From positions 690,501 through 754,500 of the forward strand of contig JASPKZ010007287.1 of the NCBI GenBank assembly GCA_030220185.1: a stretch of DNA of 64,000 nt. The letters are read 5' to 3'. The translations under genes were made by a program, and so were the position numbers. Each line of letters begins with the position of its first letter. Positions within the stretch are counted from its first letter, which is position 1. Below are positions 9,201-34,700 of this stretch, piece after piece. Origin of the DNA: Diploptera punctata (taxonomy: Eukaryota > Arthropoda > Insecta > Blattodea > Blaberidae). The notes under the pieces are model-generated. The model did no database searches. It was not told where the DNA came from and was given only the letters and a program-made list of their open reading frames with translations.

Positions 9201-12200
9201 TTTGGCGTACTCACTTTTAAAAGGACATTTACCACTGGTAGAAGGCAAGGACGTTCTCTTCTGGGTTTTGTGAACTGTTTTTTGCAGATCCATGTATCAA
9301 GACAAAATTTAATGGTTTTTCATAAGGAATAAAAAAAATCCCACACATGTTTTACTTTAATTATAGCATTCAGTGTGTCAGTGTCCATGCAGTTTTGCTC
9401 TTTTGTCCAAACTGCATTCACAAGGGAGAATATGCTTTCTACAGCACCATTGGTTCCTGGAATACAAAATGAGAATTCAAACAGTTTATTATGTTTTCAA
9501 GCAATAAATCTAGTTTATAGTAATGAAAACTTCTGCCAACACTCCATAGTAGATAATTTGTTTCCCAGAACATTTTCCTATTGTCCACACATACGCATTT
9601 TCATTAAGCAACGTATTTTCATTAACCGAGTAATCAAATTTCATGTCTATAATAAACTTGAGGGAGTTCTGTACATCTTCCCATGTATAAGACTTTTTTA
9701 GAGAAGTACTTGCCAAACAAGTTAACCTTTATATTCCGGGGTATTTAAAAATACCGCATGAATTGTAGGACGGAATTTAAATCCCAGTCCGTGATATTAA
9801 ATGGATGGTAGAGCACGCATACTAACAACAATTTTTTTTTATGAAAAACTATATGAGAGATAAGTATAAAATAACTTTTATTTAATTCATAAAAGAGTGT
9901 ATTATTCAATGAAATGTTTAATTTTTACATACAATAGAGAATTTTATTATTAAAAGTTAAAATTTATTTGCGAGGTCTATAGTTTTTGGTTTGACTTTAT
10001 AACGGGTTCAGTTTATGATTTGAAGGTGACTGTACTCTTGCAAAGAGGATTTGATGATGTAGTTGGAACACCACGTGTGCCATGAAAATTCTGCTTTGAA
10101 AGCATAAACATGAATTAATGCCCGCCTTGTTGACGACATAGTTATCAGCACATTTTTTTTGGCTGTGGCACTCAAACCTTATACAACACTAAGATTCAAT
10201 CTTGAATTAGTAACTAGACTGTGGTTTGTTTTGTAACATATAAAAAAATGGCTTCACGTATATGGCATCCTGGATTATCAAAATATTGTGAGTAGAATAT
10301 GAAATATTTTAAAAAAATAATACTAACAAGATATTACCATGTTAACTCGTTATAATTTAAATACAAAATTAGGGGTGAAAAAGACACCACATGTTTTTTT
10401 TCTTATTTTTGATGAATAATTGATCTAAAACACAATAGGTTAGAGCCACAAATAACTTCCTTGCAATATTTTCTGAATTTTTATAATTTTACAAAGAAAT
10501 AATGTTATCATGGGAAAAATATGTAAAAATTAGGGGTGAAAAAGGCACCTGATGTGTTTTTTAATTTTTTGTGAATACTTGATTGGAACACAATAGGTTA
10601 GAGCCACCAATAATTCCTTTACAATATTTTCTGAATTTTTTTAATTTTACAAAGAAATAATGTTATCATTGGACAAATATGTCCACTAAGTCCTTTAGGG
10701 CTTTACATTTAATGGACAAAATATGTCCCTCAAGTCTTCTAAAAGTTAATTCATCAAATGGATAACTCTATTCTTTACATACTCCATGAATGTGTCATAA
10801 AAACTAAATACTGCTTACTTATTCCATCTTCAGATTCTAACTTAGATGCTTTTTCCTCTCCAATATAGATATTGATGATTATATCTTTTATTTTCTAATA
10901 TACATCTACTCCTTAAATATTATTCTGTTAAAGATATTTTATTGAAGAGTTAAACAATCCTAGCTGGTTATACAAGAATATAAGAAACAACTGTGAATTT
11001 TTAGACTCAAAGAATATTTTTAGCATTGTTGAACATTTTTCCATAGTTGTATGATTTTAAACCGGGATATATGTCAGTTATTCTCTTTACAGCAGGTATT
11101 AATGAAATCCGCCTTGTTTTAATGTATCCCTATATATATTCCATTACTACAAAATTGCAAAAAAATCCTGGATATATGTCAGTTATTCTCTTTATAGCAG
11201 GTATTAATGAAATCCACCTTGTTTTAATGTATCCTTATATGTTTGTATATTCCATTACTATAAAATTGCAAAAAATCCTAAATGTGTTCGAACATGCATT
11301 GTGAAATTGTACAAAAATTTTGACACACAATGCTTTGAGTGTCCACTGGCAAACAGACACAACCCACATATATTACTTTCCTCTTTGTCTTGTTATTTTT
11401 TTGATTACATAAATTTACTATTTGTATTATCTGTTAAAAATGATAATTTTTATCGGTATACTCAGCATCAAGAAGTACCTGCAATATGTGTTCTGTTCGC
11501 ATGTCATAGGTGTTTTTCCATCAAGTTTGACAAGGCAATTATTTTGATATTCTATATTTGAAGAGGAAAATTCTCACCCAGACCAAGACTCCAACCCAGG
11601 ACCTTTGGCTTTCTAGGCCAGTGCTCTACCATCTGAGCTATCGGGGCAAGTTCCGATCTAGATGCAAATTTTTCTGTTATATACGTTGTAATTCCCTGCA
11701 CCAAATGCTATGAATATGAGCCTTTGCTTCTATCTTTGCAAATGGTGGCTTCTTAGTTAAGAAGACAGCAGGAATTTAAACACTACTTTATAAAGCCGGT
11801 AGGGCTGAGATGGTAGAGCATTGACCTAGAAAGCCAAAGATCCCGGGTTCGAGTCTCGGTCTGTGCAAGAATTTGTCTCTTCAAATATAATTTATCCTTC
11901 ACTGAGAAATGTTAAATTAATAATAGAAACATCAATTATTTTGATTTTAATTCCCTCAGATTGAACAAAATAACAAATGAACACCAAAACTACTTGTATA
12001 TGCTTTTATTAGATGAATGTGTCATTCCTGATATCTATTGGCTGCGGAAATTACTGGAACCTAAGGTTACATGTGCCCAAACTAAAGTGAAAGCAATCAT
12101 TTGAAATGTTTTTGCAACATTAGCATACACTCATACGAGAGTTTCAAGTCAATACGTATAACTCCTCTTTAGCTGCCGGCACTGTTACCAATACACATGT

Positions 12201-13703
12201 TGGAGAAATACAAATTAATTGTTTTGCTTGATACTCACAAAATCTGCCTCTGTATGTTTTTTAGTTTCAAATATTTTTGAATATTATTACTACTGCCATG
12301 GTCGATTGAAAAAGTAGAATTGCAAGTAACAAAACACTTTATCCATCAGTACTTTTAAAAATGCATGGTAATCCACTGGTGAGGTTATTAATTTAAATCT
12401 TTAAGTCCATACCTGATATATCAATTGTCCTTAACTAGAACAATTTTCAGTGCTAATAACAAAAGGAAATTTGCATTTTAAAAGAAGCACATACTTTTTC
12501 TTCGGTGGCATCTTGTTTTCTTCACAGTCATAAGAAAACAAACCCATTCCCGGAAATTCACATCACAATATGTTATTGACTGTTCATTTATATACTATTT
12601 AACAATTAAGTTTAATTTAAAAAATACTGGTGCCACGTGAGTCGTGTGGTGGTGATTGGTTGGTAAACTGTTGACAATAAGAGGTAAGAAAGGCAATAAT
12701 AAAAGCAAGATAGGGAACCTGCTATTTGACATAACAATGTAATAGTAATTGAGTTTGTATCTTTTAAACATTCTTACCTCATATGATAGTTTTGTCGGAC
12801 ATATGTTTCTAGGCTGTTGCCCCTTGAAACACATGTCCGACAAAACTATCATATGAGATAAGAATGTTTAAAAAATACAAACTAAATTATTAAATTAAAC
12901 CTCATAATGTTACTTCCTAATGATTTTAAAATGTAATAGTAATAAGACTTCATAAAAAATCTGTCAGCCCATAAAATCATAAAGCAAGTTTATTGAGTCT
13001 AATATCTTACCTCAATTTAATGATTTGTTCTCGACCATGTTTCGATTAGTCTTCTAATCATTATCAGCATGGCCAGACCGGTTAGATTTATGTTGTAAAC
13101 TCTGGATGTCGATGCCAGCTCCCTCTTGCGGTTGGCCGAAGAACTTCCAAACAAGATCACTCTCAATCGGTATTTCAAAATCCATAACTCTGTTTTTGTT
13201 CTTCTGGATGTAGATTTTTTCCCCAAATAGTTCTTTTGTATTTTCTAACTGTTTTAATAATTTAATGTTCAAATTTATATTATGTTTTTCAGACCAAACA
13301 TGAGCAGCAACTGCAGATTTTTCTATTTCCCCATTTTTAATATTCCTTATGTGTTCCTTGGTTCTAATTTTCAGGTTTCTTTTCGTTTTTCCTATATATA
13401 TATATATATATATATATATAATCTCTTTTTTTTACAACCAGTACATTAAATTTGATATATTCCTGATTTTTTACTTTGATCAGTTTTTAATTTTTTTTTT
13501 TTTGTTTGTATTAGTTTATTTAAACTGTGGTTAATTTTCGGTGCTAATTTAATATTAAATTTGTCAGATATCTTTTTTGGGCACACGATAAATTCCGAAA
13601 AATAACCACAGTTTAAATAAACTAATAAAAACCAACAAAAATAAAAAAAAATTGATCAAAGTAAAAAATCAGGAATATATCAAATTGAATGTACTGGTTG
13701 TGA

Positions 13704-13752
<49 letters not shown>

Positions 13753-16700
13753 AAAAACAAAAAGAAACCTGAAAATTAGAACCAAGGAACACAAGAAATA
13801 TTAAAATGGGGAAATAGAAAAATTTGCAGTTGCTGCTCATGTTTGGTCTGAAAAACATAATATAAATTCTAACACTAAATTATTAAAACAGTCAGAAAAT
13901 ACAAAAGAACAAACTATTTGGGGGAAAAAATCTACATTCAGAAGGGAAAAAAAGAGTTATGAATTTCGAAATACCGACTGAGCATGACCTCGTTTGGAGG
14001 TTTTCGGCCAACTGCAGGAGGGAGCTGACATCGACATCCAGGGTTTACAACATAAATCTAACCAGTCTGGCCATGCAGATGATGATTAGAAGACTAATCG
14101 AAACGTGTTCGAGAACAAATTAACATTAAATTGAGGTAAGAAATTACAGACTCAATAAACTTAATTTAAAGAACCTCAAAATATTACTTCCTAAAATAAA
14201 ACATCATAAAGCAAATTAAGAAATAGAAAAGCATCCTTAAAAAGCACATACAGGTCCTCATAAAATCAATATGTATGGGATCCCTATGGCAAAATTTCAG
14301 ATATAAAGACCTACTTCCAGATGTGATTAGACTTAAAACAGAAATAAAGTTAAATGCACCAAACTTATTGCAGTAGTAAGTTTTTTTTTTTAAATTACTT
14401 TCGTAAATTTGGTATGGTTCTCTTGAGATATTATTGTAAACAGTTGGGAATCCATGGACCAACTTTGGGAATCACAATAAGTTAATAGGTGGTAGTACAA
14501 ACAGCAGGTAGCAGTTGAGAGTAAATTACTGTCTGATTTAAAATATATTTTATTTTATAACCTTTGTTTCTCTATGTATTGGTGCAGAGATTATTACGAT
14601 GACAGGAAGAGCAGACATCGCAGTCGATCAAGAGAACGACGACGGAGCAGGAGTCGATCACATCATCGTGAACGCCGTCGCAGCAGAGAGAAATCAAGGG
14701 ATCGGAGGCGTAGCAGGAGCAAATCACATCATCATGATAAGCATGAGCGACGAAGAAGTCGAGACAGAGATCATCATTCTAGAGATAGAGAAAGAGAAAG
14801 AACACGAGAACGTGACCGTGAACGTAAAAAAAGATCCCTTTCTCCCATTATGCTTCCTCGAGCCAGAGATAAATTTCCTTTCAAAAAAGGATCTTCACCT
14901 CTTGGAATGTAAGTTAATTAGTTTTTAAGACCAAATCATCAATAACTGTATGAGTATTGTATGTTGAGGTTAGCTTCTCTGGTTAGGTTTTTAAGTTTTA
15001 ACTCTTAGATAAATTGTATAATTTTAATTTTTAAAGTAAAATTTCAAATATAACCATTAACACCAACGTTATTATACAAAAACAAATATGCAATTTTTAT
15101 AACTCAAAACGTCTAATATTGAAAAACTGTTAGTAGAGTGAGAGCAGCATTAAAATCAAATTATAATAAACATTAGACTACCAGCCCTAAACATTCATTA
15201 TAGTCCACGCAGTGAAAATAGTAACTTGTGACATTTCCATAACATCTGTTCCTAAATTCCTTTCACATACTGTTCATATGGATCAGCTAATAGGAATTTG
15301 ATTAATCACCAGCCTTCATGTTCTTACCAAAGATGTGCTCATAGAATTTGCATTTTTTTATCCTTCACTAATTTTATATAGACATGATTATATATTTGAA
15401 GAGAAAAATTTTCGCCTAGACCGGGACTCGAACCCGGGACCCTTGGCTTTCCGGGCCAAGCCATAACTCCGACAGTTATGGCTGAAGATGAACATGACTA
15501 TGTTTGAAATCGCGATATCATGGAAGCATGAGTCCTATGAGGTGAGTTGTTTAAACAATATGTTCTCCGATGAATTTTAATACCTCATAGTGTTACTCTT
15601 AAAAAAGTAATGATTATATATATTTTGTTACTAGTTGTCTTACAACATTTCTGGCATTTTCTCAGGCATTTGAGGTTGGGGGCACCTTTAGGGCAGAGAA
15701 ATGATATGTTGATTATTGAAGTGTAAGAGAGCAACTGCTTTACATTAGATACTAATCAATCACAGTGATTATGATATCAGTAAATTTGTTTTTTCATGTT
15801 GTATTTTGTTTGTAATATTAATGAATTTTCTACAAATGTAATGAGAATTATAATTGGTTGTGATAGACTCAGCATTGCAACTTCCTGCGAATAACTCTAT
15901 CTTTTATTACCTGCTCACCTTACGTGTTATTGGTGGAGTGAGGGTTTAAGGAACTGCCGTTAGATATTGTAACATTATACTCTAGGATCTGATGTTCACA
16001 TTCTTTATTCAAAGTGGTTAGAAGTTGTTTTTGCACTGAGAAAGTTTCAAAATGGTAAATAAAGATAAAATGTGTATTGTTGAAAATTAAAACCCACTAT
16101 TATCATCATCATGGTTAAAAGCATGTGAAGGCAGGCTATCTTGAAGCTGTTTCTTCAGGAAAGAACCACTTTAATGGATTTGTTGCACTTTTTACGTACC
16201 AGCCATCACCAGTGGTGTGATATCGTATGTAAAATGTTAAAAAATCCATTAAAGTGGTTCTTTAATATTTAATTTTAGGAAGAAACACTTCCAACATAGC
16301 CCTCCTTCATTTGCCTTTAGCCATGACACTCACAATAATATATTATTTTTGTTTTGATTTTAAAGGCCTCCAGACGAGCTATCACCTGAAGAGAGAGATG
16401 CTCGTACTGTGTTCTGTATGCAGCTTTCACAGAGGATAAGAGCTAGAGATTTGGAAGAATTCTTTTCTTCGGTTGGAAAGGTTGGTATCAACTTGAAAGC
16501 AAGTCATTATGTATAGGAATTACACAATAAAAAATATATATCTAAAATACTGTATAATGTCTCAGAATAATTTGCATCCTTAAATTCGAATTTAAAGTAA
16601 TTTACAGATGACATTTTTATGCATCAGGTTGAAAGGAAAATAATAGGTTAAAATTATTTTAGATAAAGATTATGACAGTACTTAATGGTTGGATTGAAGC

Positions 16701-19700
16701 ATGAAAAGAACTGATCGTTAATTGGTCGTTTCTCAATTAAATTCTATTTAATCATTACTCATGTCTCCAAGTAGTTGAAGAAAATTATGTCTGTGTGAAC
16801 TCCTGCTTTGATAGTGCTACTTAGTTCAATAATTGGTTACTACCCATTTTACACTAAATAATTGTATGTGATCATGATACAATTATTAACCTACTATATT
16901 AACTGAATTTGGTGTGTGGTGGTACGATATTTCTAGCCTGAAAATATTCAAATTATGGCAGAATAAAATATGTAAATTAGATCCCTGGTCGGGACAGTTT
17001 CCTCAGTGAGGTTTTTATTGGAGTTTTTCCTCACTGTAAGACAAATGTCAGGAAACTTTAAGGCCCAAATGGTCCCTGAACATCATATGGCCATCACTAT
17101 CATCATTCATATTCATCTTAGATTAAGCTTAGGATTAAGGACTCTCCTGGTGCACCACTAGCATCATCATCACCCATCATATCATCAAGGCAATGTAATC
17201 CTGCCTTCCAGGCGTCCCAACCTCAGAAGAGGGTTACAGTTATGCCAATGCCAGGAGAGAACACCAGAAATGTCCAAAAAAAAACAACCTAGGGCATTAA
17301 AAAAAATATATACACAGACAAGCCATCTGTAAGTAATATTTAACACAACTAAGAGAAATTTTTGCCTGTGCCAGGATTTGAACTTAAGACTTTCAGCTTC
17401 ACGTGCTGACACACTTATCATTGAGCTATGTAGGAACGCCGTGAGGAAACATAAATTTAATATTTAATTTTAGGAATTTATATTTTGAGGTTATTTTAAT
17501 TATATTATTTTTAGTCTGGACATCTTACCTCAATATTAATGTTGATGGACATGTTTCAAAACAATTCTGTTTTATCGTCAGCTTTCCCAGACTGAAAGCT
17601 GACGATAAAACAGAATTGTTTTGAAACATGTCCAAGAACAAATCAACATTAATATTGAGGTAAGATGTCCAGACTAAAAATAATATAAAAAACATAAATT
17701 TCTCTCTCTTTATTCCCTGTGGCTTCGTAGTACTGAAACTTTCTAATCATAAGTAAAGTGTGAAGTAACACTATGAGGTATTTTCAATTTATAGATGAGT
17801 TGGAGAATATGTTTATATATCTCACCTCATAAAGTTCTGTTTTTTCACGATACCTGTTTCAAAGGTCATTTTACCTTCATCTTCAAACTCCAACATGGAA
17901 CTTTATGAGGTGAGATATAAAGACTTTTTCTCCAACTCATTTATATACTGAAACTTTATTCACAATACCATAGTTTGCTTCTAAATCAAGAAAACATTAT
18001 GATGAGATTTACTCTATGAGCTAATTATGAACATAATATGGAAATCAATATATTCAAGCAATGCATCTGCAAGCATTAGTTAACGCAACTAAAGAGACAA
18101 ATAGTGAGAAGTGTTAAATTAATAATAAAAACATCTAAAAAGACAAATATCTGCCTGTGCCAGAATTTTAACCCATGACCTCCAGCTTTACATGCTGGCG
18201 CTCTACTATTGTGCTACTCTAGAAGCAAGCAAAAATTTCTCTTTAATCCTTGTGGTTCTGCAGTAGTAAAAATTTGTTCACAATACTGTAGGGATGCTTC
18301 TAAATCAAGAAAAAATTGGTTATATAAACTTATGGAGAAAGAATGATTGCAAAATAGATATTCTGAATATATTAGTGAGGATGGAATCATTAGATTAAAA
18401 ATAATAATTTCAAAGTAATGAAATAAATACAATATAAATTGACTTTTTAGTTTTAAAAATACTGTGGAAGTAACATTAAGAGTTAATAAATTAATGAGTC
18501 ATTTTTACATCTTACCTCATATATCATGTTTCATTAAACACGGTAACTATAGTTTTCAAATGATCTTGTCATTCATTTTCAACCGCCATTATGACTACCG
18601 GATATTCGTTGGAATCTCCCTCTGTATCGTTGCCATCTGGTATTGATTTGATGAACTTCGAGATGAGGTCACGTTCCATCCGGAATGTCGAAATTCATGG
18701 ATTTAAATTTGTTCTTCTGAATAAATATTTTCTCCCAAACTGTCAAATCCAAATATGAGGTAAGATGTAAAAATGACTCATTAATTTATTAATTAAGAAC
18801 CTCATAATGTGTTTCCCATTTTTAACTTTGAACATTAAGAGGTTTGACGATTTTATTATTAATTTAACACTTCTCATTGAAGGATAAATTATATTTGAAG
18901 AGAAAAATTTTCGCCAGAAGCTATGGTTTCAAGCATTTGGCGCGTGGGAATTACAACGTACATAAGAGAAAAATTTGCGTCTAGATCGTAACTCGCCTCG
19001 GTAGCTCAGTTGGTAGAGCACTTGGCCCGGAAAGCCAAGGGTCCCGGGTTCGAGTCCCGGTCTAGGCGAAAATTTTTCTCTTCAAATATAATTTATCCTT
19101 CTATGAGAAGTGTTAAATTAATAATAAAATCGTCAATAGAAGCCCTACTGGCTATAAAGTAGTGTTAAATTCCCATAAATGTCTTCTTAACTAAGAAGCC
19201 GCCATTTGCAAAGATAGAAGCTATGGTTTCAAGCATTTGGCGCGTGGGAATTACAACGTACATAAGAGAAAAATTTGCGTCTAGATCGTAACTCGCCTCG
19301 GTAGCTCAGTTGGTAGAGCACTTGGCCCGGAAAGCCAAGGGTCCCGGGTTCGAGTCCCGGTCTAGGCGAAAATTTTTCTCTTCAAATATAATTTATCCTT
19401 CTATGAGAAGTGTTAAATTAATAATAAAATCGTCAATAGAAGCCCTACTGGCTATAAAGTAGTGTTAAATTCCCAATAAATGTCTTAACTAAGAAGCCGC
19501 CATTTGCAAAGATAGAAGCTATGGTTTCAAGCATTTGGCGCGTGGGAATTACAACGTACATAAGAGAAAAATTTGCATCTAGATCGTAACTCGCCTCGGT
19601 AGCTCAGTTGGTAGAGCACTTGGCCCGGAAAGCCAAGGGTCCCGGGTTCGAGTCCCGGTCTAGGCAAAAATTTTTCTCTTCAAATATAATTTATCCTTCA

Positions 19701-22700
19701 ATGAGAAGTGTTAAATTAATAATAAAATCGTCAATAGAAGCCCTACTGGCTATAAAGTAGTGTTAAATTCCCAATAAATGTCTTCTTAACTAAGAAGCCG
19801 CCATTTGCAAAGATAGAAGCTATGGTTTCAAGCATTTGGCGCGTGGGAATTACAACGTACATAAGAGAAAAATTTGCGTCTAGATCGTAACTCGCCTCGG
19901 TAGCTCAGTTGGTAGAGCACTTGGCCCGGAAAGCCAAGGGTCCCGGGTTCGAGTCCCGGTCTAGGCGAAAATTTTTCTCTTCAAATATAAAAAATATTAT
20001 TAAGAGGTTTATTTAATAATCAATATATTTGGTCTGTGTATTCTTACCTCTTATGATTGTTTTTGTGGAACATATGTTTCAAGGCTTCTGAACCCCATCC
20101 TCAGCGATTACAGAGCCTGTAATCTGTAGTAATTGCTGAAGATGGGATTCAGAAGCCTTGGCTCTTTAGTTTGTATTTTTCATATAGGTTCGATATATTA
20201 AATTAATCACATGCATTAAATAAGGTTTAAAATAATTGCTTATGTTGAATAAATAAATTTACTCCTTAGTTTTTTTCTTTAAATTTAATGTGCCATTCAG
20301 TGAGAAGTGATAAATTTAATATTAAACATTGACTCTTTAGTTGTTTGTATTTTTGTTATAGGTTCGAGATGTTAGATTAATCACATGCAATAAGACAAGG
20401 AGGTTTAAAGGAATTGCTTATGTGGAATTCAAGGATCCGGAGTCAGTGCCTTTGGTAAGTGTCTGATATCAAAAGAGAAAATCATATATTACACATCTCA
20501 CCTCATATTAAATTTTCTCAACTGCACTTGCATTGGTAACCATTGTCTCCATTTTCAGTTAGATTCCTACCATATCTAGTTGAGAATGGAAATAGTGGTC
20601 TCTGAAACATATTTAGATGAGAAAATTTAATAAGCGGTGAGGTGTATATTTACAGTTATCTCTCTTGATAATATTAACTCATAATGTCGCTTTTTATTTA
20701 TTAACTATTGATTCAATTCGTTAGAATTTTAGACATAGCTACATTTACTGAAATTTGCACACCAAGTAATGTATATAAGTGTACATAATTTGAAGTCATG
20801 TTATTACTAACCCAAGTTAAATCTGCATGCGGAAAATATGTTAAGTATGTGCTATTTGGTTATCTTTCTTCTCTGTGTTGCCATTTCCTGTCCCTTGTAT
20901 TGTGTTACTGTATTTACACCTGTATAGGCCACACCGAAGTTTTGCGATAATAAATTGGGGAAAAAAATAAATGTCTTCTTAACTAAGAAGCCGCCATTTG
21001 CAAAGATAGAAGCAATGGTTTCAAAAGCATTTGGCGGTAGGGAATTACAACGTATATAAGAGAAAATTTTGCGTCTAGATCGTAACTTGCCTCGGTAGCT
21101 CAGTTGGTAGAGCACTTGGCCCGGAAAGCCAAGGGTCCCGGGTTCGAGTCTCGGTCTAGGTGAAAATTTTTCTCTTCAAATATAAAAAAATATTTGTCTT
21201 ATATTTTCGCTAAGAGTCAGTGCAAAGACAGAACTTTTAAATCTGGCAATGTTGTAAATTCCAGAGCTTCTGTTTCCGGCTATGTAAGAGTACATTTGGG
21301 CTGCAGCTCAGTCATTAACACAAGGATAAAAGGGACGGTCAGTTGGTAGGTACAGTATTCATTGTCATTCCTGTTCACTGTATGTAAACATGGGTCGGTG
21401 CAGAGCAAGTTATACCTCCAAATTCAAGCCACAAATGGTGCACTATGCAGCAGAACATGGATATAAGACAGCAGGAAGAAAGTTTAATGTGGACGAAAAA
21501 ATGTGCGACTATGGATCCAAACAGAACATGCACTTTAAAACATGTCAGCGACAATCTTTATGTGGAAAGAAAGCGAAATATGTACAGTTAGAAAGAGTTC
21601 TCCTGGATTATGTGTGAAAAACAAGGCCAGACGGATTTTCTGTACCCGTCGAAATGATACAGTTCGAAGGCGTCAAGATAGCAAAGAATATGGAAATCCC
21701 ATGCAATGAATTTAAGGCAAGTTATGGCTGGGCAAGGCAACTTATGACACATCATGACCTTGTAATTCGGCGGCATACATCAATAGCACAGGAACTTTCC
21801 AATATGTACCAGGAGAAATTGCTCACTTGTTGGAGTATTTGTAAGGTATGTGGGCCTTGTAATTAATTAGACAAATTTGTTCTAAAATAAATCAGTTATT
21901 TCATGTATAAGCTGCATCCTAATTTTGAAGCTTTTATTTTAGGTAAAAAAGTGTGGCCTATACATGCGTAAATACGGTACTTGAGTGTTGGAGGGGAGCA
22001 TGGGCAAATAGTGTCCTTTTTAAATGATCCGTCTCCCACAGTAGTCATTGACCAAATAAATAATCTGGCAACTATATTACTACTGCGGAATGAGCTGTCC
22101 CTCCTTTGCTTTTCTCATTACAGGTTGCCAATTCCCATTGTTTTAAAATACAATAGGAAGTAACATTAAGAGGTTTGTTTAATAATTAAAATACATTTTG
22201 TCTGTACATTCTTACTTCTTACGGTTGTTTTTGTCGAACATATGTTTCAAGGTTTCTGAGCTTAATCATCAGCGATTACAATTACAGATTGAATTTTCTC
22301 AAGTTGTCGGTCCTGATTCTTGATTCGTACTCTCTCTGCCCCTGGTCCAATGAATTTACTAGTGAGATTCCTTTCTCCGGGAATTTCAAAATTCATAATT
22401 ATTTCCTTGTTCTTCTGTATGTAGATTTTTTCCCATATGGCAAGTTCATTTTTGTTTTCTAACTGTTTTAATAATTATGTGTTTACATCTGTTTTGTGTT
22501 TTCCTGACCAAACATGAGCAGCCACTGCAGATTTTTCTACTTCCCCTTTTTTTACATATCTTATGTGTTCTTTAGTTCTAATGGTTAAATTTCTTTTTGT
22601 TTTCCCTATGTATATCTTATCATAGTCTGCACATTTTATTTGATACATTGCTGATTTTTTTACCATCATCAATCTTTTCATTTTTATTAGTTTTTAATAG

Positions 22701-25700
22701 TTTATTTAAACTATAACCATTCTTTGGTACTAAACTAATATTAAATTTTTCAAAAATCTTTTGAAATTTGTTGTGTGCCCAATATGTGAATTTCCTGTAT
22801 CTCTTATATTTTGGTTTTTCTATCTGAAGAGTGCTTTTGTTCCTCAATTTGTTTTTTTTTGTTTTTTTTTCAATGGAAAAAATAACACAAAAAAAATTGA
22901 GAAGTACAAAAAACTGAAATTGAGGAACGAAAGCACTCTTCAGATAGAAAAACCAAAAGATAAGAGATACAGGAAATTCACATATCACCCTTGGGTGCAC
23001 AACAAATTTCAAAAGATTTAAAAAAAAAATTAATATTAACCAGCTATAATGGCTGGGGACCCGACATGCTGACCACATGTCACCCCTACACTGGTTAGAT
23101 GATCGTCTACCTCTGTAATAAACATGTGGATGTGATGCCGGCTGGTAGGCCAAGGACCTTCTAGGCCTGTCGCGCTTGGAGATTTTTTAATATTAGTTTA
23201 GTACCAAAGAATGATTATAGTTTAAATAAACTAATGAAAATGAAAAGATTGATTATGGTAAAAAACAAAAATATATCAAATAAAATGTGCTGACTATGAT
23301 AAGATATACACAGGGAAAACAAAAAGAAATTTAACCATTAGAACTAAAGAACATATAAGATATGTAAAAAAAGGGAAGTAGAAAAATCTGCAGTGGCTGC
23401 TCATGTTTGGTCAGAAAAACACAAAATAGATGTAAACACAAAATTATTAAAACAGTTAGAAAACAAAAATGAACTCGCCATATGGGAAAAAATCTAGTAC
23501 AGAAGAACAAGGAAATAATTATGAATTTTGAAATTCCCAGAGAAAGGAATCTCACTAGTAAATTCATTGGACCAGGGGCAGAGAGAGTATGAATCAAGAA
23601 TCAGGATTGACAACTTGAGAAAATTCAGTCTGCGATTGCTGACGACGGGGCTCTGAGGCCTTGAAACACATTATATTATTTTTGGTCTGGACATCTTACC
23701 TCAATATTAATGTTGATTTGTTCTTGGACATGTTTCAAAACAATTCTCTGTTTTATCTTCAGCTTTCCCAGACTGGTTTTATTTATGTTGCATTATGTTG
23801 CACCACCTGGATGTCGATGTCAGCTCCATCCTGTGGTTGGCCAAAGAACCTCCAAACAAGGTCACCCTCCATCGGAATATCAAAATTCATAACTCTGTTT
23901 CTGTTCTTCTGAATATAAATTTTTTCCCAAATAGTCAGCTCGTTTGTATTTTCTAACTGTTTTAATAATTTAGTGTCTGAATTAATATTATGTTTTTCAG
24001 ACCAAACATGAGCAGCAACTGCAGATTTTTCAATTTCTCCATTTTTAATATTTCTTATGTGTTCTTTGGTTCTAATTTTTAGGTTTCTTTTTGTTTTCCC
24101 TATATATATCTTTTCACAACCCATGCATTCAATTTGATATATTCCTGACTTTTTATTTTTATCAGTTTTTTGTTTTTTCATTTTTGTTGGTTTTTATTAG
24201 TTTATTTAAACTGTAGTTATTTTTTGGTGCTAATTTAATATTAAACTTCTCAAATATATTTTGAAATTTTATTATGTACCCAGGGGTGATATGTGAATTT
24301 CCTATATTTTTTCATAGGTGGTTCTTCTTTTTCAAGATTACTTCTGTTTATCATTTTTTGTTTTTTATTATACTTTTCTATCCTTTTATGTACCATTTTT
24401 TCATCAAACCCATTTCTCTTTGCTACTTTGATTATGTGTTTTTTCTCATGTTTGAAATCTTCTTCGTTTAAGGGTAAGTTTACCAATCTATGAGTTAAAC
24501 TATTAAATGCTGCTAATTTATGTCCAATTGGATTGAACCCTGTTGATTTTATAAAATTTTCCGTATGAGTTTCTTTTCTATGAATCCTGAATTCAATTTT
24601 TCTTTTTTTTCTTCGTTTCTGACCAATTTAAGATCCAAAAAAGGTATTTGTTTATTGTCTTCTATTTCTTTGGTGAATTTAATGTTTGTACTCTGTAAAT
24701 TTAATAGTTTTAGGGAATCTTCTACATGTTTTTCTTTAACAATACAAATTATATCATCAACATATCTACTCTCCAAAATTTAAACATTGTGGGATGTGCT
24801 TTAGTGATTTTACATTCAAAATCGCTCATAAATAAATTTGCCAGGAAGGGTGATAATGGGTTTCCCATTGAGAGCCCTGATTTTTGTCTATAGAAACTCC
24901 CATTGAATGTAAAAAACATTTGATCAATGCATAACGCAGTTAATTTCAAATAATCTTCTTTGATCTCTCTGTCTATGTTGTTTTTTTGTTTTTTCTTAAC
25001 CAATTGTTCAATATCTCCAAAGTTTTTTGTTTCGGTACATTTGTGAATAGTGAAACTACATCAAACGAAACCAACCTATCTGTGGGTTCAATTTCCACTT
25101 TTTCTAATTTGTTAACTAATTCCAATGAATTTTCAATCTGCAGACTTTCAAAATTATTAATTCTTTTAAATTGATTAATCAATTTAAAAGAATTAATAAT
25201 TTTGAAAGTCTGCAGATTGAAAATTCATTGGAATTAGTTAACAAATTAGAAAAAGTGGAAATTGAACCCACAGATAGGTTGGTTTCGTTTGATGTAGTTT
25301 CACTATTCACAAATGTACCGAAACAAAAAACTTTGGAGATATTGAACAATTGGTTAAGAAAAAACAACATAGACAGAGAGATCAAAGAAGATTATTTGAA
25401 ATTAACTGCGTTATGCATTGATCAAATGTTTTTTACATTCAATGGGAGTTTCTATAGACAAAAATCAGGGCTCTCAATGGGAAACCCATTATCACCCTTC
25501 CTGGCAAATTTATTTATGAGCGATTTTGAATGTAAAATCACTAAAGCACATCCCACAATGTTTAAATTTTGGAGTAGATATGTTGATGATATAATTTGTA
25601 TTGTTAAAGAAAAACATGTAGAAGATTCCCTAAAACTATTAAATTTACAGAGTACAAACATTAAATTCACCAAAGAAATAGAAGACAATAAACAAATACC

Positions 25701-28700
25701 TTTTTTGGATCTTAAATTGGTCAGAAACGAAGAAAAAAGAAAAATTGAATTCAGGATTCATAGAAAAGAAACTCATACGGAAAATTTTATAAAATCAACA
25801 GGGTTCAATCCAATTGGACATAAATTAGCAGCATTTAATAGTTTAACTCATAGATTGGTAAACTTACCCTTAAACGAAGAAGATTTCAAACATGAGAAAA
25901 ACACATAATCAAAGTAGCAAGAGAAAATGGGTTTGATGAAAAAATGGTACATAAAAGGATAGAAAAGTATAAAAAAAAAAAATGATAAACAGAAGTAATC
26001 TTGAAAAGAAGAACCACCTATGAAAAAATATAGGAAATTCACATATCACCCCTGGGTACATAATAAATTTCAAAATATATTTGAGAAGTTTAATATTAAA
26101 TTAGCACCAAAAAATAACTACAGTTTAAATAAACTAATAAAAACCAACAAAAATGAAAAAACTGATAAAAATAAAAGTCAGGAATATATCAAATTGAATG
26201 CAATGGGTTGTGAAAAGATATATATAGGGAAAACAAAAAGAAACCTAAAAATTAGAACCAAAGAACACATAAGAAATATTAAAAATGGAGAAATTGAAAA
26301 ATCTGCAGTTGCTGCTCATGTTTGGTCTGAAAAACATAATATTAATTCAGACACTAAATTATTAAAACAGTTAGAAAATACAAACGAGCTGACTATTTGG
26401 GAAAAAATTTATATTCAGAAGAACAGAAAACAGAGTTATGAATTTTGATATTCCGATGGAGGGTGACCTTGTTTGGAGGTTCTTTGGCCAACCACAGGAT
26501 GGAGCTGACATCGACATCCAGGTGGTGCAACATAATGCAACATAAATAAAACCAGTCTGGGAAAGCTGAAGATAAAACAGAGAATTGTTTTGAAACATGT
26601 CCAAGAACAAATCAACATTAATATTGAGGTAAGATGTCCAGACCAAAAATAATATAATTAAAATAACCTCAAAATATAACTTCCTAAAATTAAATATTAA
26701 TTACAACTTGAAACACATGTTCAACAAAACAACCATAAGAGGTAAGAATGTACAGACAAAATGTCTTAATCCCATTGTTTTGTTTGTGTTGTGAGGCTGG
26801 TAATAGAGAAATGACAAACACTGTGAATTTAAATGAACCAAACTTCAGAAGTCGTCGATTAATTGAATAAATTGACAACCTTGTAATGATATTTTACATG
26901 TATATAGGGATTCTCTCTTCCATAGAGTAATAGTTTGGCGACACTAGTGCTAACACACTTCCCATCTAACCATACAGACTTAACTTAGGCAAATAATATT
27001 TTCACTTATATTGAACTTTTATAGGAAAAAAATCACTGTGAGATTTCATTTAAGATTAAATTAAAATGTTTTATACATCACCTCTTATTCAGTTTTCTAA
27101 CTAGACCGTTTCGAAGCCTGGGCAGTTTCATCTTCAGTAATTTCTCGTCGACTGATGTTATGTCGATCAGAAGAATCTTCTGCTAGATATCGGTGAAATT
27201 GGAATGACAATATTGAAAAATTTATGTTAAATGGATGTTCACTTACTTCATATTGCCAGGTTTTGATATGACAAGTTAGGATACATCAGATTAGAACACA
27301 TTTCATTAAATAAGATACATGTAATTTAATATATGAGGTATCTTTTAATTATTATGAGTTAGGGATTTAGACACACCTCATATTGATGTTTCTATTATTA
27401 ATTTAACACATCTCATTGAATGATAAATTTAATTTGAACAGAAAAATTTTCACCCAGACCGGGACCTTTGGTTTACTGTACCAATGCTCTTCCAACTGAC
27501 CTACTGGAGTGAATTCCAATCTTGACGCAAATTTTTCTCTTATATACGTTGTAATTCCCTCACACCAAATGGTCCTGGTCTGGGTGAAAATTTTTCTCTT
27601 CAAATTAAATTTATCATTCAATGAGATGTGTTAAACTAATAATAAAAAGCATCAATAGAAGCCTACTGGCTTTTAAAAGTAATGTTTAAATTCCCAATAA
27701 AGTCTTAATTGAGAAGCCGCCATTTGCAAAGATGAAGCCACAGCTTCAAGCATTTGGTGCGCAGGAATTACAACATATATAAGAGAAAAATTTGCGTCTA
27801 GTTTGGAACTTGCCCTGGTAGCTCAGTTGGAAGAGCATTGGTATGGTAAACCAAAGGTCCTGGGTTTGGGTCCCAGTCTGGGTGAAAATTTTTTCTCTTC
27901 ATATTAAACACCTCATATTTTTTAATTTTCCTGCAGACCATGGTTTCTTCACATATGTGACTTAGGAAGCATTGACAATATCACACACATGTGAAGAAAC
28001 CATGGGCTGCAAGAAAATTAAAATATATGAGGCGAGTCTAAATCCCTAACTCATAAAAGTCATAAAAATTAATACATGTAATTTATTTTGTTACATTAGG
28101 AAGGGGAAGTTGGTGTACATCCATTTCTTTCTAATAAATGTTCAGGAATTTATTGTAAAGTTTGGTCATACCGATTTTACATCTACATCGTTCCATCTAG
28201 TGGCGAGTCTATAAAAATTTTGTAGGACTTCACATATATGTGGGCGACAACTCTATAAACTTTGTGCATGCATACTGTTATTCTGTAGGACTTAGAAAAT
28301 TTATTAGGGAAGGTAAACTAAAGTTTTTCCAAACTTTTTTTTGTACAATATGTATTTGACTTGTCTGCTCCTGAGCCCAGATATTGAGATTTTGTCTGTG
28401 GCTAGTTAAATTTAGTTGCATAGCATACAAGTAGACCCAGCTTGGCAGAGTGCTTTGCTTGGGGGGAACACGTATGCAAAATTAAAAGAATTGCTTAACA
28501 ATGCTCAGAGACAAACATTCTTATGTAGCAGTACAAAGTGATTCTGATAATATTTATATACAGTAAAAGCTCCGTATTCACGGGTTAAATAATTGTATTT
28601 GTGGCTAAAAATTTATTTGCGGACCCAGTCGTTATGTTAGAAGGATTAGTATCCTTTATTAACCATTAGCAACTTTTTTTTACTGCAGGCACGTGCCAAT

Positions 28701-31700
28701 GCGGCTTTTACATGTAGGGATTCAAACCAAATGGACAAATTAATAACAAAGTAAAACAATTGAATTATTTGGAGTCTATTTATCTTACCTCAATATTAAT
28801 GTTGATTTGTTCTTGAACATGTTTCTATTATATCATATAATAGATGATTATGATATAATTGAAACATGTTCAAGAACAAATCAACATTTGTATTGAGGTA
28901 AGATTAACAAACTCAAAATAATTCAATTAAAAGAACCTCAAAATATGTTGTTGTTGTTGTTTTCAAATGCTGGGCCTTGGCACCGAAGCCATTAGCGTTC
29001 TTGCTCTCCAATATTTCTCTATTGTGGATCCAACAGGTAATACTTCACAGGTTTGTAGGTGTTCTTCATTCATTTCTTCGTCTTTGTTGCATAGAGGACA
29101 ATTTGGATTCGTGTAGATTCCTATTTTATATAAATGTTTGGCCAAATAGTCATGTTCTGTAAGCAGTCTAAATGTTGCTATTGTAGTTTTACGTGGAAAT
29201 TCTGGAATAATATCTGGCTTCTTTACTAAAATATTCCATTTTTTGTCTTTGGCTTTATTACATAGGTCTTGGTTTTGTTTGATTTTATATTTGTTTTTAA
29301 CTATTCTTTTTATGGGTGTGAAAGGTAAGCTTTTAGTAGTATTCTGAATTAAATTGGAGCCTTTTTTGGCAAGAAAATCAGCAGTGTCATTTCCAGCAAT
29401 TCCACAATGTGCAGGTATCCATTGCAATTGAATTCTTTTCTGTAGTCTTTGGACCTCAAAATATTACTTCCTAAAATAAAACATTAAAGTAAAACAAACC
29501 ACCGTAAATCATGGTACTGCTATGTCCATTGATAAATGCCGCCCTCACCTCAATCGGTGTTACATTGTTTCAATTTGTCATTCGTTGCATTAATTTTTAT
29601 TGGATAACACATGTCTCTTCTGTTTTGTTGTCAATTTATAATGTTAAGTAAGAGGAAAGAAAATAAATTTCGAAGCAGAAAAAAGTAGTGTTGCCACTTA
29701 AAGTAAAAATAGAAATGTTTGATCAATTATATTATTTTTGGTCTGGACATCTTACCTCAATATTAATGTTGATTTGTTTTTGGACATGTTTCAAAACAAT
29801 TCTCTGTTTTATCTTCAGCTTTCCCAGACTGTTTGATCGTTTACGTCTTGGCGAGTCATTTGCATCTATATCATACTGTTTCAATGTTGATGAATCAACT
29901 GTATGATACATTAAGTAACCCGAAGACAAAGGAATGATATCGCTGAATTCACAGCTAAATATCAATCAGAATTGAAAGACATTATAAAAGTGGCAAAACA
30001 GGAAAATATTACTAAGTTCTTTAAGTCCTTGCCTAAGCCTGACAGTAATAATTAATAGAAATTGTTCAGAATCTCTGATTAATTGATTTTATTTTGATAA
30101 TTTTTATTTTGGAACCTTGGAATGTACCATTCCATATTTGCGGAATATATCCCCTGAAAATAAGGAGCTTCTACTTTATTAAAATTTAAAATAAATTCTT
30201 CTCATCCCGTCTTCCTAAAATTCACTACCTTTTTAATTTTTTTTTACAGTGTTCTGCCCTAGGGCAGATCCTTCACTGCAATCATAGCATTTTCATGCTA
30301 CGCTTTGCAGCTTTACTAGGGGATTGTAGGTATGGTAGCTTTCAGTTGCTTTCCACACCAGGAATGATAATGATTTTGTTTATTTTTTATTATTTCACTC
30401 ACATCATACTTCATATTCATAGCAGACCCAGGGTTTCTTCACATCATTTGTGACATTCTCAATGCTGTGTCACAAATGATGTGAAGAAACCCTGGGTCTG
30501 CTATGAATATGAAGTATGAGGTGAGTGAAATAATAAAAAATAAACAATATTAAAAAACCTCATAGTGTTATTTCCTATCTACATAACTTAATAATGATAA
30601 TGATTGTTGCTAGATGATGATTCAATATCTATATGTTTATTAAGTTATGTAGATAGGAAATAACACTATGAGGTTCTTTAATATTGTTTATTTTTTATCA
30701 TTTCACTCACCTCATACTTCATAATTTATAGCAGACCCAGGGTTTCTTCACGTAATTCGTGACATTGTCAATGCTGCGTCATGTTCACAACTGACGTCCA
30801 ACGGCCTTCTATCCTGCAGACTGACCTCCGCGCCATCTGGTGGCCGACCGAAGAATTTCCAAATCAGGCCTCTTTCTTTATAACCGGGTATTTCAAAATT
30901 CATAGTTGTATTTTCATTCTTGCATATGTAAATTTTTTCCCAAATTGTGAGTTCCTTCGGTTTTTCCAATTGTTTAAGTAATTTTGTTTTGGTTTCTATT
31001 CTATAGAAATTACTTAAACAATTGGAAAAACCGAAGGAACTCACAATTTGGGAAAAAATTTACATATGCAAGAATGAAAATACAACTATGAATTTTGAAA
31101 TACCCGGTTATAAAGAAAGAGGCCTGATTTGGAAATTCTTCGGTCGGCCACCAGATGGCGCGGAGGTCAGTCTGCAGGATAGAAGGCCGTTGGACGTCAG
31201 TTGTGAACATGACGCAGCATTGACAATGTCACGAATTACGTGAAGAAACCCTGGGTCTGCTATAAATTATGAAGTATGAGGTGAGTGAAATGATAAAAAA
31301 TAAACAATATCTATATTATATTTGAAGAGAAAAATTTTCGCCTAGACCGGGACTCGAACCCGGGACCCTTGGCTTTCCGGGCCAAGTGCTCTACCAACTG
31401 AGCTACCGAGGCGAGTTACGATCTAGACGCAAATTTTTCTCTTATGTACGTTGATAATTCCCTCGCGCCAAATGCTTGAAACCGTAGCTTCTATCTTTGC
31501 AAATGGCGAGGGTCCCGGGTTCGAGTCCCGGTCTAGGCGAAAATTTTTCTCTTCAAATATAATTTATCCTTCTATGAGAAGTGTTAAATTAATAATAAAA
31601 TCGTCAATAGAAGCCCTACTGGCTATAAAGTAGTGTTAAATTCCCAATAAATGTCTTCTTAACTAAGAAGCCGCCATTTGCAAAGATAGAAGCTACGGTT

Positions 31701-34700
31701 TCAAGCATTTGGCGCGAGGGAATTATCAACGTACATAAGAGAAAAATTTGCGTCTAGATCGTAACTCGCCTCGGTAGCTCAGTTGGTAGAGCACTTGGCC
31801 CGGAAAGCCAAGGGTCCCGGGTTCGAGTCCCGGTCTAGGCGAAAATTTTTCTCTTCAAATATAATTTATCCTTCTATGAGAAGTGTTAAATTAATAATAA
31901 AATCGTCAATATCTATATGTTTATTTTTAACTGAATAAGAAGTCAACAGTCATGGCTAATTTTAAATACCTGGAGGCTGCATTTTGTAATGAACTTCTAT
32001 GATTAAAGAAATAAATTATACAATAAAATGTTGACCTTTTAGGAATTAACACTTTGAGGTACATTTATTTAAGTAGGCTAAACTTCCCAACTTTGAGTAT
32101 CCAAATCCTGATGTTTTTATTATTAATTTAACACTTCTTACTGAAGGATAAATTGTATTTGAAGAGAAAAATTTTCATCTAGACCGAGACTCTAACCCGG
32201 GACCTTTGGCTTTTCGGGCCAAATGCTCTACTGACTGAGCTACCGAGGCAAGTTGCGATCTAGATGCAAATTTTTCTCTTATATACATTGTAATTAGAGC
32301 ATGGAAGTCTATATGCTGCGAGTATATCCATGTTCGTGTGGAAAATCATACATAGGAACCACAAAAAAAGAAGTATAGCTGCCCGTTTATCAGAATACAA
32401 AAGAAACTGCAGACAAGGACAAATGACAATCAGCTTGGCAGAACATGCTATTATAAACAGACATCAGATTCTTTATGAGGATACACAAGTTTTAGCCAGA
32501 ACACCCTATTATTTGATGTTTCACTGAAGGATAAATTATATTTGAAGAGAAAAATTTTCGCCTAGACCGAGACTCGAACCCGGGACCTTTGGCTTTCTGG
32601 GCCAAATGCTCTACCAACTGAGCTGTCGAGGTGAGTTGTGATCTAGATGCAAATTTTTCTCTTTATATGTTGTAATTCCCTCATGCCAAATGCTTTGAAA
32701 CCGTTGCTTCTATCTTTGCATATGGCAGCCTCTTAGTTAAGGAGACATTAATTGGGAATTTAACAGTACTTTATAAAGCCAGTAGTATGAAGTGAGTTAT
32801 TAAAAATATGTTCTCCACTCACTATTAAAAATTTTAATTTGAAACTGTTGTGATGCTTGTGCATTGTTAGACTGACAAAATTTTAAAAACCAAACTGATT
32901 TAAATTGGGTACGGCACAAAAAGTGACATCCAAATTTCAATGCAATTTTGGTTTTAAATTAAGCTTAGGGGCACCAATGATGAAAATGCAAAAAAAAAAA
33001 AAAATTGCAGATCATCCAGAAACAAACCAGTAAAATAACATTATTTAAGCACTACAGAATCTTGTAATCAAATGGTAAAGAGAAAAATTTATGCCTGAAC
33101 CGGGAATCGAACCCCAAACCCAGCTTTCCGTGCTGATGCTCTAACCATTGAGCTAATCCAGGCTTCCTTCCCATCCAAGCATAAATCCTTCCTTTACCTT
33201 ACTGTCTTGGTCCCACATTCAAATGCTATGAATCATCATTCACAAATACACAATGAATGGCTTCTACCTGAAGATGACATGAAGGGACTCCACAGCTATA
33301 GCATTATTTATTAAATTAATATTAAGAAGCTAAAGCTGTTACTATGATTGAAATAAGTATATTAAAGTACACTACTAAATTATTGTAATCAAATGGTAAA
33401 GAGAAAAATGGGAAGGAAGCCTGGATTAGCTCAATGGTTAGAGCATCAGCACGGAAAGCTGAAGGTTCGGGGTTCGATTCCCGGTTCAGGCATAAATTTT
33501 TCTCTTTACCATTTGATTACAATAATTTGGTAGTGTACTTTAATATACTTATTTCAATCATAGTAACAGCTTTAGCTTCTTAATATTAATTTAATACTAC
33601 AGAATCTCATTAGTTTACTGTATGGGACATCCCAATTTGATATAATTTTGGTTTTAAAATGAAGTTTAGGATCACCAAAGATGAAACACGAAACAATTTG
33701 CAGACCATCAATAAACAAACCAGTAAAATAACATTTTTTGAAGCACTATACAATCCATATCCTAATAGTTTAACATACATCACATCGAATTCCTGGTAAC
33801 AATATAATGCTGAGAGATGTTTTCTTTTCTTTGCGGATTAATACATAAGCCCAGTACAAGCGATGCGGTGAATTTAGAGAGATACAGGAAATTTAGTTTT
33901 ATTAATTACAGCGACGCGACGAGATTTTGTCAGGTTAGATGAGGAAAATAGTGTACACCAGATTAATTATATTATTTTTGGTCTGGACATCTTACCTCAA
34001 TATATTGAGGTAAGATGTCCAGACCAAAAATAATATAATTAAAATAACCTCAAAATATAACTTCCTAAAATTAAATATTAATTACACCAGATTAGTTTAT
34101 TGGTTTTGTTAGGTTAGATGACATATTAGTATACACCAGATTAGATTCATTTCCCATTTAATATTTATAGGAAGTAACACTATGAGGTTCTTTTAATTAT
34201 TATGAGTTAGGATGTATCGACAATGTCACATAAATGTGACAAAACTATAGTCTGTAAGAAAATATAAAATAAGAGGTGAGTGAAAATCCTTAACTCGTAA
34301 TAATTAAGATTTTTTCTGAGACTGGGAATATCCTACCTCAATTTAATGTTGATTTGTTCTCAAACATGTTTCAATATAATCTTCTATATCATCTTCAGCT
34401 TGCCCAGACTTGATGAGTTTTATGTTGTGAACCCTGGATGTCGATAGACTCTCATCAATCTGGGCAAGCTGAAGATGATAAAGAAGATTACATCGAAACA
34501 TGTTCAAGAACAAATCAACATTAAATTGAGGTAAGATGTTTCCAGTCTCAAAAAAAACTTGATAAAAGAACCACAAAAATATTACTTTCTAAAATAAACC
34601 ATTAGATCATAATAATTAATTTCCCTTGTTCATTTTCGAGAAGTCCACCGCTGTGGTCTCGAGGTAGCATGCTGCCTTGTCACGCAGCGGGCCCGGGTTC

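Follow-up and report, generated by a model that had tools for sequence, protein, structure and literature searches.

Short tandem tRNA-bearing elements in Diploptera punctata with the insertion signature of Penelope-like elements

Which enzymes insert a short repeated element that carries a tRNA-like sequence and encodes no enzyme of its own? The question is raised by a 64,000-nucleotide stretch of the Diploptera punctata genome (contig JASPKZ010007287.1, positions 690,501 to 754,500; hereafter the window), in which five composites join inverted and direct copies of such a sequence. The first-pass annotation likened them to dimers of Penelope-like elements (PLEs), with a tRNA-like gene in the place of the PLE hammerhead, and proposed a non-autonomous element mobilized by PLE machinery. 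Judging from sequence comparisons in the window and across the genome, we conclude that the composites very probably belong to a young family of short non-autonomous elements that would be inserted by the reverse transcriptase (RT) and GIY-YIG endonuclease of PLEs.

Read base by base, all five composites contain an inverted and a direct copy and are bounded by perfect target duplications, which bears out the layout and the 11-13 bp duplications first described (Table 1). Four of them form one family, including an older member, composite 3, with 79-84% identity to the consensus. Composite 5 (33063-33595) represents a second family, fam2, whose tRNA-like domain and tail both differ from those of the first, the tails being unrelated. 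The tRNA-like sequences are called by ARAGORN and Rfam in each composite, as Ser or Thr; by eye they have no long variable arm, and so are not ordinary tRNA-Ser genes.

A search of the 3.12-Gb assembly with a 300-bp unit gave 784 first-look candidates, and 40 of these, when scored, yielded 128 matches, many at 98-100% identity and some being fragments of the same locus. Dozens of near-identical short copies were thus observed, and copies probably number in the hundreds. We fetched 38 loci around the best-scoring matches, a sample therefore biased to young copies, and classified the ends of 28. The majority sequence of 105 complete units, which were picked for having an exact 15-base tRNA start at each end and so favor intact tRNAs, is 301 bp long with a G+C content of 40.5%. 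The unit consists of a tRNA-like domain (1-73), a T-rich trailer, site A near position 97 (CTTCAAATATA), the tail GAAGTGTTAAATTAATAATAAAA, site B near 137-142 (AATAATAAAATCGTC), a linker, and a 5' flank (268-301) whose sequence is mostly the complement of the trailer and of the tRNA's 3' half. It encodes neither an RT nor a GIY-YIG domain and is too small to do so, which makes the element non-autonomous.

The outer ends of the insertions follow a simple rule. We scored an end as A at phases 88-112 of the unit and as B at phases 128-150. All 28 classified insertions have a minus arm followed by a plus arm, head to head (the short minus arm of L012 and plus arm of L044 were placed by eye), and in 27 of the 28 one outer end is A and the other is B, with B on the left in 15 and A on the left in 12. 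The tail lies between the two sites and is confined to one end of an insertion; the opposite end falls about 43 nt short of that, stopping after CTTCAAATATA. The conserved tail originally attributed to all five composites is found in four, at one end only, with composite 5 carrying its own. In composite 2 (18846-19998), where B is left and A right, it lies on the inverted copy and not on the direct array, which is made of four tRNA copies in tandem. Both copies of fam2 found, composite 5 and one in L037, also have A/B ends. The head-to-head part of the proposed PLE layout holds, while the dimer is only one of its forms: the shortest arms hold less than one unit and the longest, the minus arm of L040, is 4,023 bp or more than 12 units, with no difference in length between the two end types (medians 598 and 588, n=25, P=0.67).

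Exact duplications of 12-16 bp flank 23 of the 28 classified insertions. Over all 28, the duplication is 12-14 bp in 22, 16 bp in one, 9 bp in three and 8 bp in one (L014, where it grows to 13 bp when a wider flank is compared), and one insertion has none. As a control, left flanks compared with the right flanks of other loci shared at most 11 bp. The 26 duplications of at least 9 bp are 80% A+T.

Another check on the origin of this signature comes from the PLE insertions in the same sequences, which we delimited by hand. Seven could be delimited, six in the window and one in L025, and each has its tail at one end only (end types by eye) and a duplication of 9-14 bp; the stretch 22165-23660, with a match of 6 bp only, was excluded, and a further head-to-head insertion of the hammerhead-bearing family P4 looks similar by eye and stands outside the count. 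The published rotifer PLEs are described in like terms, the tail being optional on one of the inverted pseudo-long terminal repeats (pLTRs) (PMC3846280, consulted in part). PAc from the lizard A. carolinensis, according to its authors the first PLE active in vitro, cleaves and extends both strands, and its reverse transcription begins at a pair of internal sites lying on either side of the tail (portions of PMC11167929). In our insertions the 'optional tail' of PLEs becomes a stricter pattern, in which each insertion has one start at A and one at B.

The hammerhead core motif CTGANGA..GAAA occurs on at least one strand in all six window PLE stretches tested and in L057, a copy of PLE family P3. 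Taken alone the motif is weak evidence, since it occurs 31 times in the window on the two strands together, and Rfam gave no ribozyme call for the PLE cores in the window or, at E up to 1, in L057. Neither strand of the doubled tRNA-unit consensus contains the core, and Rfam found no ribozyme match in the unit, in a search that missed the PLE cores as well.

Two insertions join the two kinds of element directly. The first lies in the window (15384-15621). Its left arm is a minus-strand tRNA element started at A (15391-15460; 70 bp, 100% identical to the consensus), about 14 nt in the middle match the P4 minus strand by eye (a diverged plus strand is also possible), and its right arm is plus-strand P4 with hammerhead core and tail, to 15609. 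A single 12-bp duplication encloses both arms; at random places in the window, at least 12 bp are shared with the left flank in 24 of 5,000 draws. The second, L025, is a P3 insertion with an A' end on the left, a tail (B') end with an A-run on the right, and the duplication AATTAATTGTT; 1,629 bp of tandem tRNA units lie between its two P3 arms, and at the switch point the tRNA unit and the P3 sequence have AACT in common. A scan of the collected sequences for head-to-head joints between tRNA elements and PLEs gave four matches: these two chimeras, an ambiguous case at 32109-32514, and a trivial 32-bp match in L044.

Family P3 (L025, L057, C3398, C5128 and C6959) is very young, with 41 matches at 99-100% identity when 40 of 245 candidates were scored, some of them tandem copies of about 2.6 kb. 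Its unit of 2,608 bp is tandem in L057, and the frames are broken in both copies inspected (L025 and L057). Pfam recognizes a GIY-YIG domain in the L025 copy, and has no family for the N-terminal 199 amino acids of the L025 protein or for the P3-like endonuclease piece in the window. Named relatives of the protein come mainly from insects, including Bemisia tabaci and Diploptera punctata itself, with one from a lamprey.

The A/B ends, the head-to-head arms, the rule of 12-14 bp duplications and the two chimeras together make mobilization by PLE machinery, as first proposed, well supported. Several observations weigh on the other side. L042 ends in A on both sides and has no duplication. An A-run of at least 15 stands beside one element end in two of the 28 insertions (L014 and L034), which may reflect untemplated addition or odd priming. 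PLE duplications (9-14 bp) are similar, and not identical, to those of the tRNA elements (mostly 12-14 bp). Clear chimeras number only two, from a scan that did not extend to other retroelements. Ten of the 38 loci, themselves the best-scoring and young copies, could not be classified: one end lies beyond the fetched stretch in L021, L031 and L040, there is a single arm in L028, L029 and L038 and no clear arm pair in L015, L030 and L046, and L025 was set aside as a chimera. For PAc in vitro, top and bottom strands showed no difference in start site, and the one-A-one-B pattern does not appear in the available portions of that report (PMC11167929). Finally, the resemblance to PLE tails that the first-pass annotation had noted did not hold up, an outcome which that annotation had itself listed as counting against its reading: the first-family tail gave p values of 0.16-0.86 against shuffles, and the fam2 tail 0.09-0.99, in a test that covered five PLE tails and left out P2, P4 and other PLE families, whereas PLE tails compared with one another in the same test gave p values of 0.012 or less. 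The tail therefore points to no partner family; it is equivalent to a PLE tail by position, not by sequence.

Three further loci were not counted as insertions. In L028 (2663-2978), L029 (2664-2979) and L038 (2652-2968), a unit plus 15 nt ending at A lies inside a PLE endonuclease open reading frame (ORF); each is single-ended and without a duplication, and the flanks are similar in the three contigs.

How the two arms came to be joined can be read from the inner joints. Arms overlap by at least 2 nt at 20 of 32 joints, compared with 17% in simulations; because BLAST extension gave the observed overlaps and exact matching the simulated overlaps, the excess may be overstated to some degree. Four joints overlap by at least 15 nt, at the complementary flank stem, and six have 1-12 inserted bases (L012, L044, composite 1 of the window and loci without two arms are excluded from the 32). 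All of this fits two separate cDNAs that were annealed and joined. We propose that a PLE enzyme, probably as a dimer, would nick both strands 12-14 nt apart, and that each nick would prime reverse transcription at an internal start, one at A and the other at B. Each cDNA would then run round the unit of about 301 nt from less than one to more than 12 times, on a circular or re-copied monomer, until the free cDNA ends joined by short microhomology or at the flank stem.

Units within an insertion are nearly identical. They differ on average at 3.15 positions within an arm, 3.83 across the arms of one locus and 9.45 between loci (medians 3, 3 and 7), the last mean being raised by the divergent L014. 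Locus-specific variants, found in none of the other arrays listed, mark all nine listed units of L021 (in both arms), all 12 in the minus arm of L040 and six of the seven in L014. Such uniformity suggests repeated copying of one monomer, and the simplest reading is perhaps a template bottleneck of one monomer, for example a circular RNA. Other arrays mix unit types (the L018 plus arm, in which five units share a type and one does not; the window array at 18846; and L031, where types alternate), so that multi-unit or switched templates must also occur. These mixtures are what one would expect if tandem arrays were copied from long transcripts of genomic arrays and not from a monomer or circle, and the PAc study, in the parts we could consult, favors unprocessed RNA as the dominant in vitro substrate and proposes a multi-copy mRNA (PMC11167929). 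The locus-specific variants of L021, L040 and L014, however, would then need a single-unit bottleneck or homogenized parents, and we rate long transcripts as the template a little below an even chance. This and the other alternatives concerning transcription and template are compatible with insertion by PLE enzymes and with one another. We also observed that the same rare variants recur at alternating positions in the L031 minus arm and at every fourth position, twice, in the L040 minus arm, as if the template had held two or four units.

What, then, does the tRNA-like domain do? As the first-pass annotation had it, it sits where PLE pLTRs carry their hammerhead; it caps a 21-bp stem whose end adjoins site A. 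The cloverleaf of 23 representatives shows 90.0% pairing, and 11 of its pairs are changed on both sides. Pairing reaches 95-96% in the D, anticodon and T stems but only 78.9% in the acceptor stem, whose pair 5 is mismatched in 18 of the 23. With so poorly paired an acceptor and, by eye, no long variable arm, the domain does not qualify as a functional tRNA gene. The flank stem is 92.3% paired, with eight pairs changed on both sides, a count reached by eight of 500 shuffles. Cloverleaf and flank stem both exceed shuffles on most measures, with the relatedness of the sequences as a caveat; the cloverleaf's count of pair types does not (464 of 500). The minimum-energy fold of the modeled unit is a long hairpin (z -6.4), in which the flank stem is predicted to out-compete the acceptor stem: the acceptor has a pairing probability of 0.00, and a forced cloverleaf is 15 kcal/mol worse. 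Among 45 divergent matches (16 sequences), the most conserved stretch is the outer stem beside A, at 0.974 for TTTTTCTCTTCA and about 0.96 for its partner strand, compared with 0.80-0.88 for the inner 5' strand and 0.838 for the tRNA body. This leads us to regard the stem beside A as the functional core, capped by the tRNA, and on the predicted fold the domain would most likely act as a structure that presents site A to the RT.

The domain might instead owe its retention to a role as internal promoter for RNA polymerase III, as in short interspersed elements (SINEs), Cassandra and Helenus. An exact B box in 98 of the 105 units, an A-box-like motif in all 105, and a B-box-like sequence seen by eye in the aligned families are in keeping with such a role. 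However, TTTTT follows the tRNA in 101 of the 105 units, ahead of both start sites, so that an ordinary polymerase III transcript would miss A and B, and arms of more than 12 units would require read-through at each terminator. We consider a promoter role rather unlikely.

The tRNA domain could also stand in for the ribozyme in function, with host tRNA enzymes cutting each unit once and ligating it into a circle, and the PLE RT rolling from both nicks, at A and at B. If so, a circle cut by host enzymes and copied from both nicks would be the protein-processed counterpart of a retrozyme; we regard this combined scheme as doubtful. Its processing step, the cutting of tandem transcripts at the tRNA by RNase P and/or RNase Z, was suggested in the first-pass annotation; the monomers would then be ligated and copied, as with the hammerhead in PLEs and retrozymes. 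The monomer-like bottleneck makes some monomer-forming step likely, the cloverleaf arms show paired changes across families, and five of 61 arm 5' ends fall at phases 71-77 beside the tRNA 3' end where 1.4 are expected (P=0.014; an arm of L012 at phase 75, outside the 61, would make six). That excess, however, coincides with the self-complementary palindrome AAAATTTT, where cDNAs can anneal, and none of the 61 ends falls at the RNase P site, taken as phases 298 to 3; L013 comes closest, with an end at 297. Clustering of arm ends at the tRNA borders is thus absent at one site, and weak and explained by the palindrome at the other. (The 61 ends exclude L012, L015, L025, L028-L030, L038, L044, L046, one arm of L010 and the window's two older composites.) The acceptor strand is predicted to be sequestered and its pair 5 is usually mismatched, the unit consensus has no CCA, and cutting by both enzymes would strip the tRNA from the copied RNA, yet the mapped arms cross the tRNA unbroken. 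The results leave cutting by RNase P or RNase Z improbable. A jump in L025 onto a 3' end made by RNase P, one base before the unit end, was considered and rejected, since the AACT microhomology with intact P3 explains the joint.

Last, an ordinary tRNA-derived SINE mobilized by a long interspersed element (LINE), with twin-priming inversions and later tandem duplication, would account for the tRNA domain, the microhomology at the inversion joints and the two ends with A-runs, but is very improbable given a pair of fixed 3' ends, one on each side, in all but one of the 28 insertions, A-runs at only two of 28 (no LINE survey was made), chimeras with PLEs (LINE chimeras were not searched for) and an anatomy shared with the local PLEs.

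Table 1. Features of the window (positions are those of the 64,000-nucleotide stretch; PLE end types were assigned by eye)
Feature	Positions	Strand	Arms and ends	Target duplication
Composite 1	11536..11945	+	minus arm ends at A, left; plus arm ends at B, right	13 bp, CAATTATTTTGAT, 11536-11548 and 11933-11945 (by eye)
Composite 2	18834..20010	+	short minus arm ends at B; plus arm ends at A	12 bp, ATTAAGAGGTTT, 18834-18845 and 19999-20010
Composite 3	27373..27919	+	minus arm ends at B; plus arm at A	12 bp, ACACCTCATATT
Composite 4	31306..31918	+	minus arm ends at A; plus arm at B	11 bp, AATATCTATAT
Composite 5 (second family, fam2)	33051..33607	+	A left, B right	12 bp, ACTACAGAATCT
Unit used for mapping	19295..19592	+	tRNA-like domain 19295-19367, TTTTT trailer, A, tail, B, linker, 5' flank strand of long stem	
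Chimeric insertion, tRNA arm and PLE P4 arm	15384..15621	+		12 bp, ATGATTATATAT, 15384-15395 and 15610-15621
Two tRNA copies flanking a PLE GIY-YIG-like fragment (about 32296-32515)	32109..32785	-		
PLE family P4, hammerhead-bearing, head-to-head	7877..8425	+	tail on left arm only	AGAAATTACA (by eye)
PLE family P1 insertion	8552..8776	+	A left, B right	11 bp
PLE insertion	12762-12925	+	A left, B right	14 bp
PLE insertion	12998-14198	+	A left, B right	12 bp
PLE family P1 insertion	17456..17690	+	B left, A right	12 bp
Longer PLE P1 insertion, RT (RVT_1) and endonuclease pieces in both arms	23673..26702	+	A left, B right	12 bp
Short PLE insertion	38601..38705	+	A left, B right	9 bp, exact

Besides the composites, the window contains further matches at 15391-15460 (the chimera arm), 18105-18130 (26 bp only), 20966-21185 and 32109-32785, and weak ones at 52387-52453 and 53386-53586. 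The GIY-YIG-like fragment between the two minus-strand tRNA copies belongs to PLE family P2 and matches 39 other genomic places, among those scored, at 85-87%. We rejected it as proof of an autonomous tRNA-bearing PLE: the 8-bp match between its flanks belongs to the unit's own B end. Other tRNA-bearing families, with different tRNA-like domains and tails, are present in L053 (2989-3115), which folds into a flank stem of the same type, and, judged by eye, in the window at 18150-18240, 37632-37710 and 52540-53600.

Minus-strand transposon pieces in the window include DDE_Tnp_1_7 (42864-43463), RVT_1 (42054-42605) and RNase H/zf-RVT (28966-29463, zf-RVT below the cut-off), and the palindromic stretches 27920-28040 and 20467-20670 look like short DNA-transposon copies. 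Putative RS-rich and RRM-like exons, which may resemble RBM39, lie on the plus strand at 14496-14912 and 38030-38240; the window may be an intron-rich gene.

If insertion is by PLE enzymes, the ends of these elements record the workings of a little-understood reaction. Their short, near-identical copies give a clean read-out of it, with one cDNA per start site at opposite ends, joined by microhomology, and they make of the 'optional tail' a rule open to in vitro testing. The tRNA elements would then be the PLE counterparts of SINEs, with PLE enzymes acting in trans on RNA that has no hammerhead. A literature search, with bioRxiv and most subscription journals outside its coverage, found no report of a tRNA-bearing PLE satellite among the titles and abstract openings listed.

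Among known systems (each source consulted in part), endonuclease-containing PLEs of the Penelope/Poseidon type, such as PAc and Pen2a of A. vaga, share with the tRNA element the inverted and direct copies, the tail on one inverted copy, two internal RT starts bounding the tail, AT-rich targets and partial tandems (PMC11167929, PMC3846280); the tRNA element differs in having no ORF and no hammerhead, a tRNA-like hairpin instead, a 301-bp unit and a tail of its own. The tRNA-derived SINEs Sbg1-9 of Blattella germanica also contain a tRNA-like sequence with A and B boxes (PMC9191728), whereas the tRNA element usually has no poly(A) or microsatellite tail, and has a terminator straight after the tRNA, head-to-head arms and two fixed ends. 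The closest described systems are metazoan retrozymes and Helenus. Metazoan non-LTR retrozymes, described in 2020, are likewise non-autonomous, with tandem units of 150-450 bp, duplications of more than 4 bp and a G+C content below 50% (PMC7229834), and the tRNA element has a tRNA-like domain in place of their type I hammerhead core. Helenus and Cassandra, terminal-repeat retrotransposons in miniature (TRIMs), are likewise non-autonomous and carry a tRNA- or 5S-like sequence within their repeats; they have long terminal repeats (LTRs), a primer-binding site (PBS), a polypurine tract (PPT) and 4-5 bp duplications (PMC10886601), unlike the tRNA element (in which PBS and PPT were not searched for), with its mostly 12-14 bp duplications and PLE anatomy.

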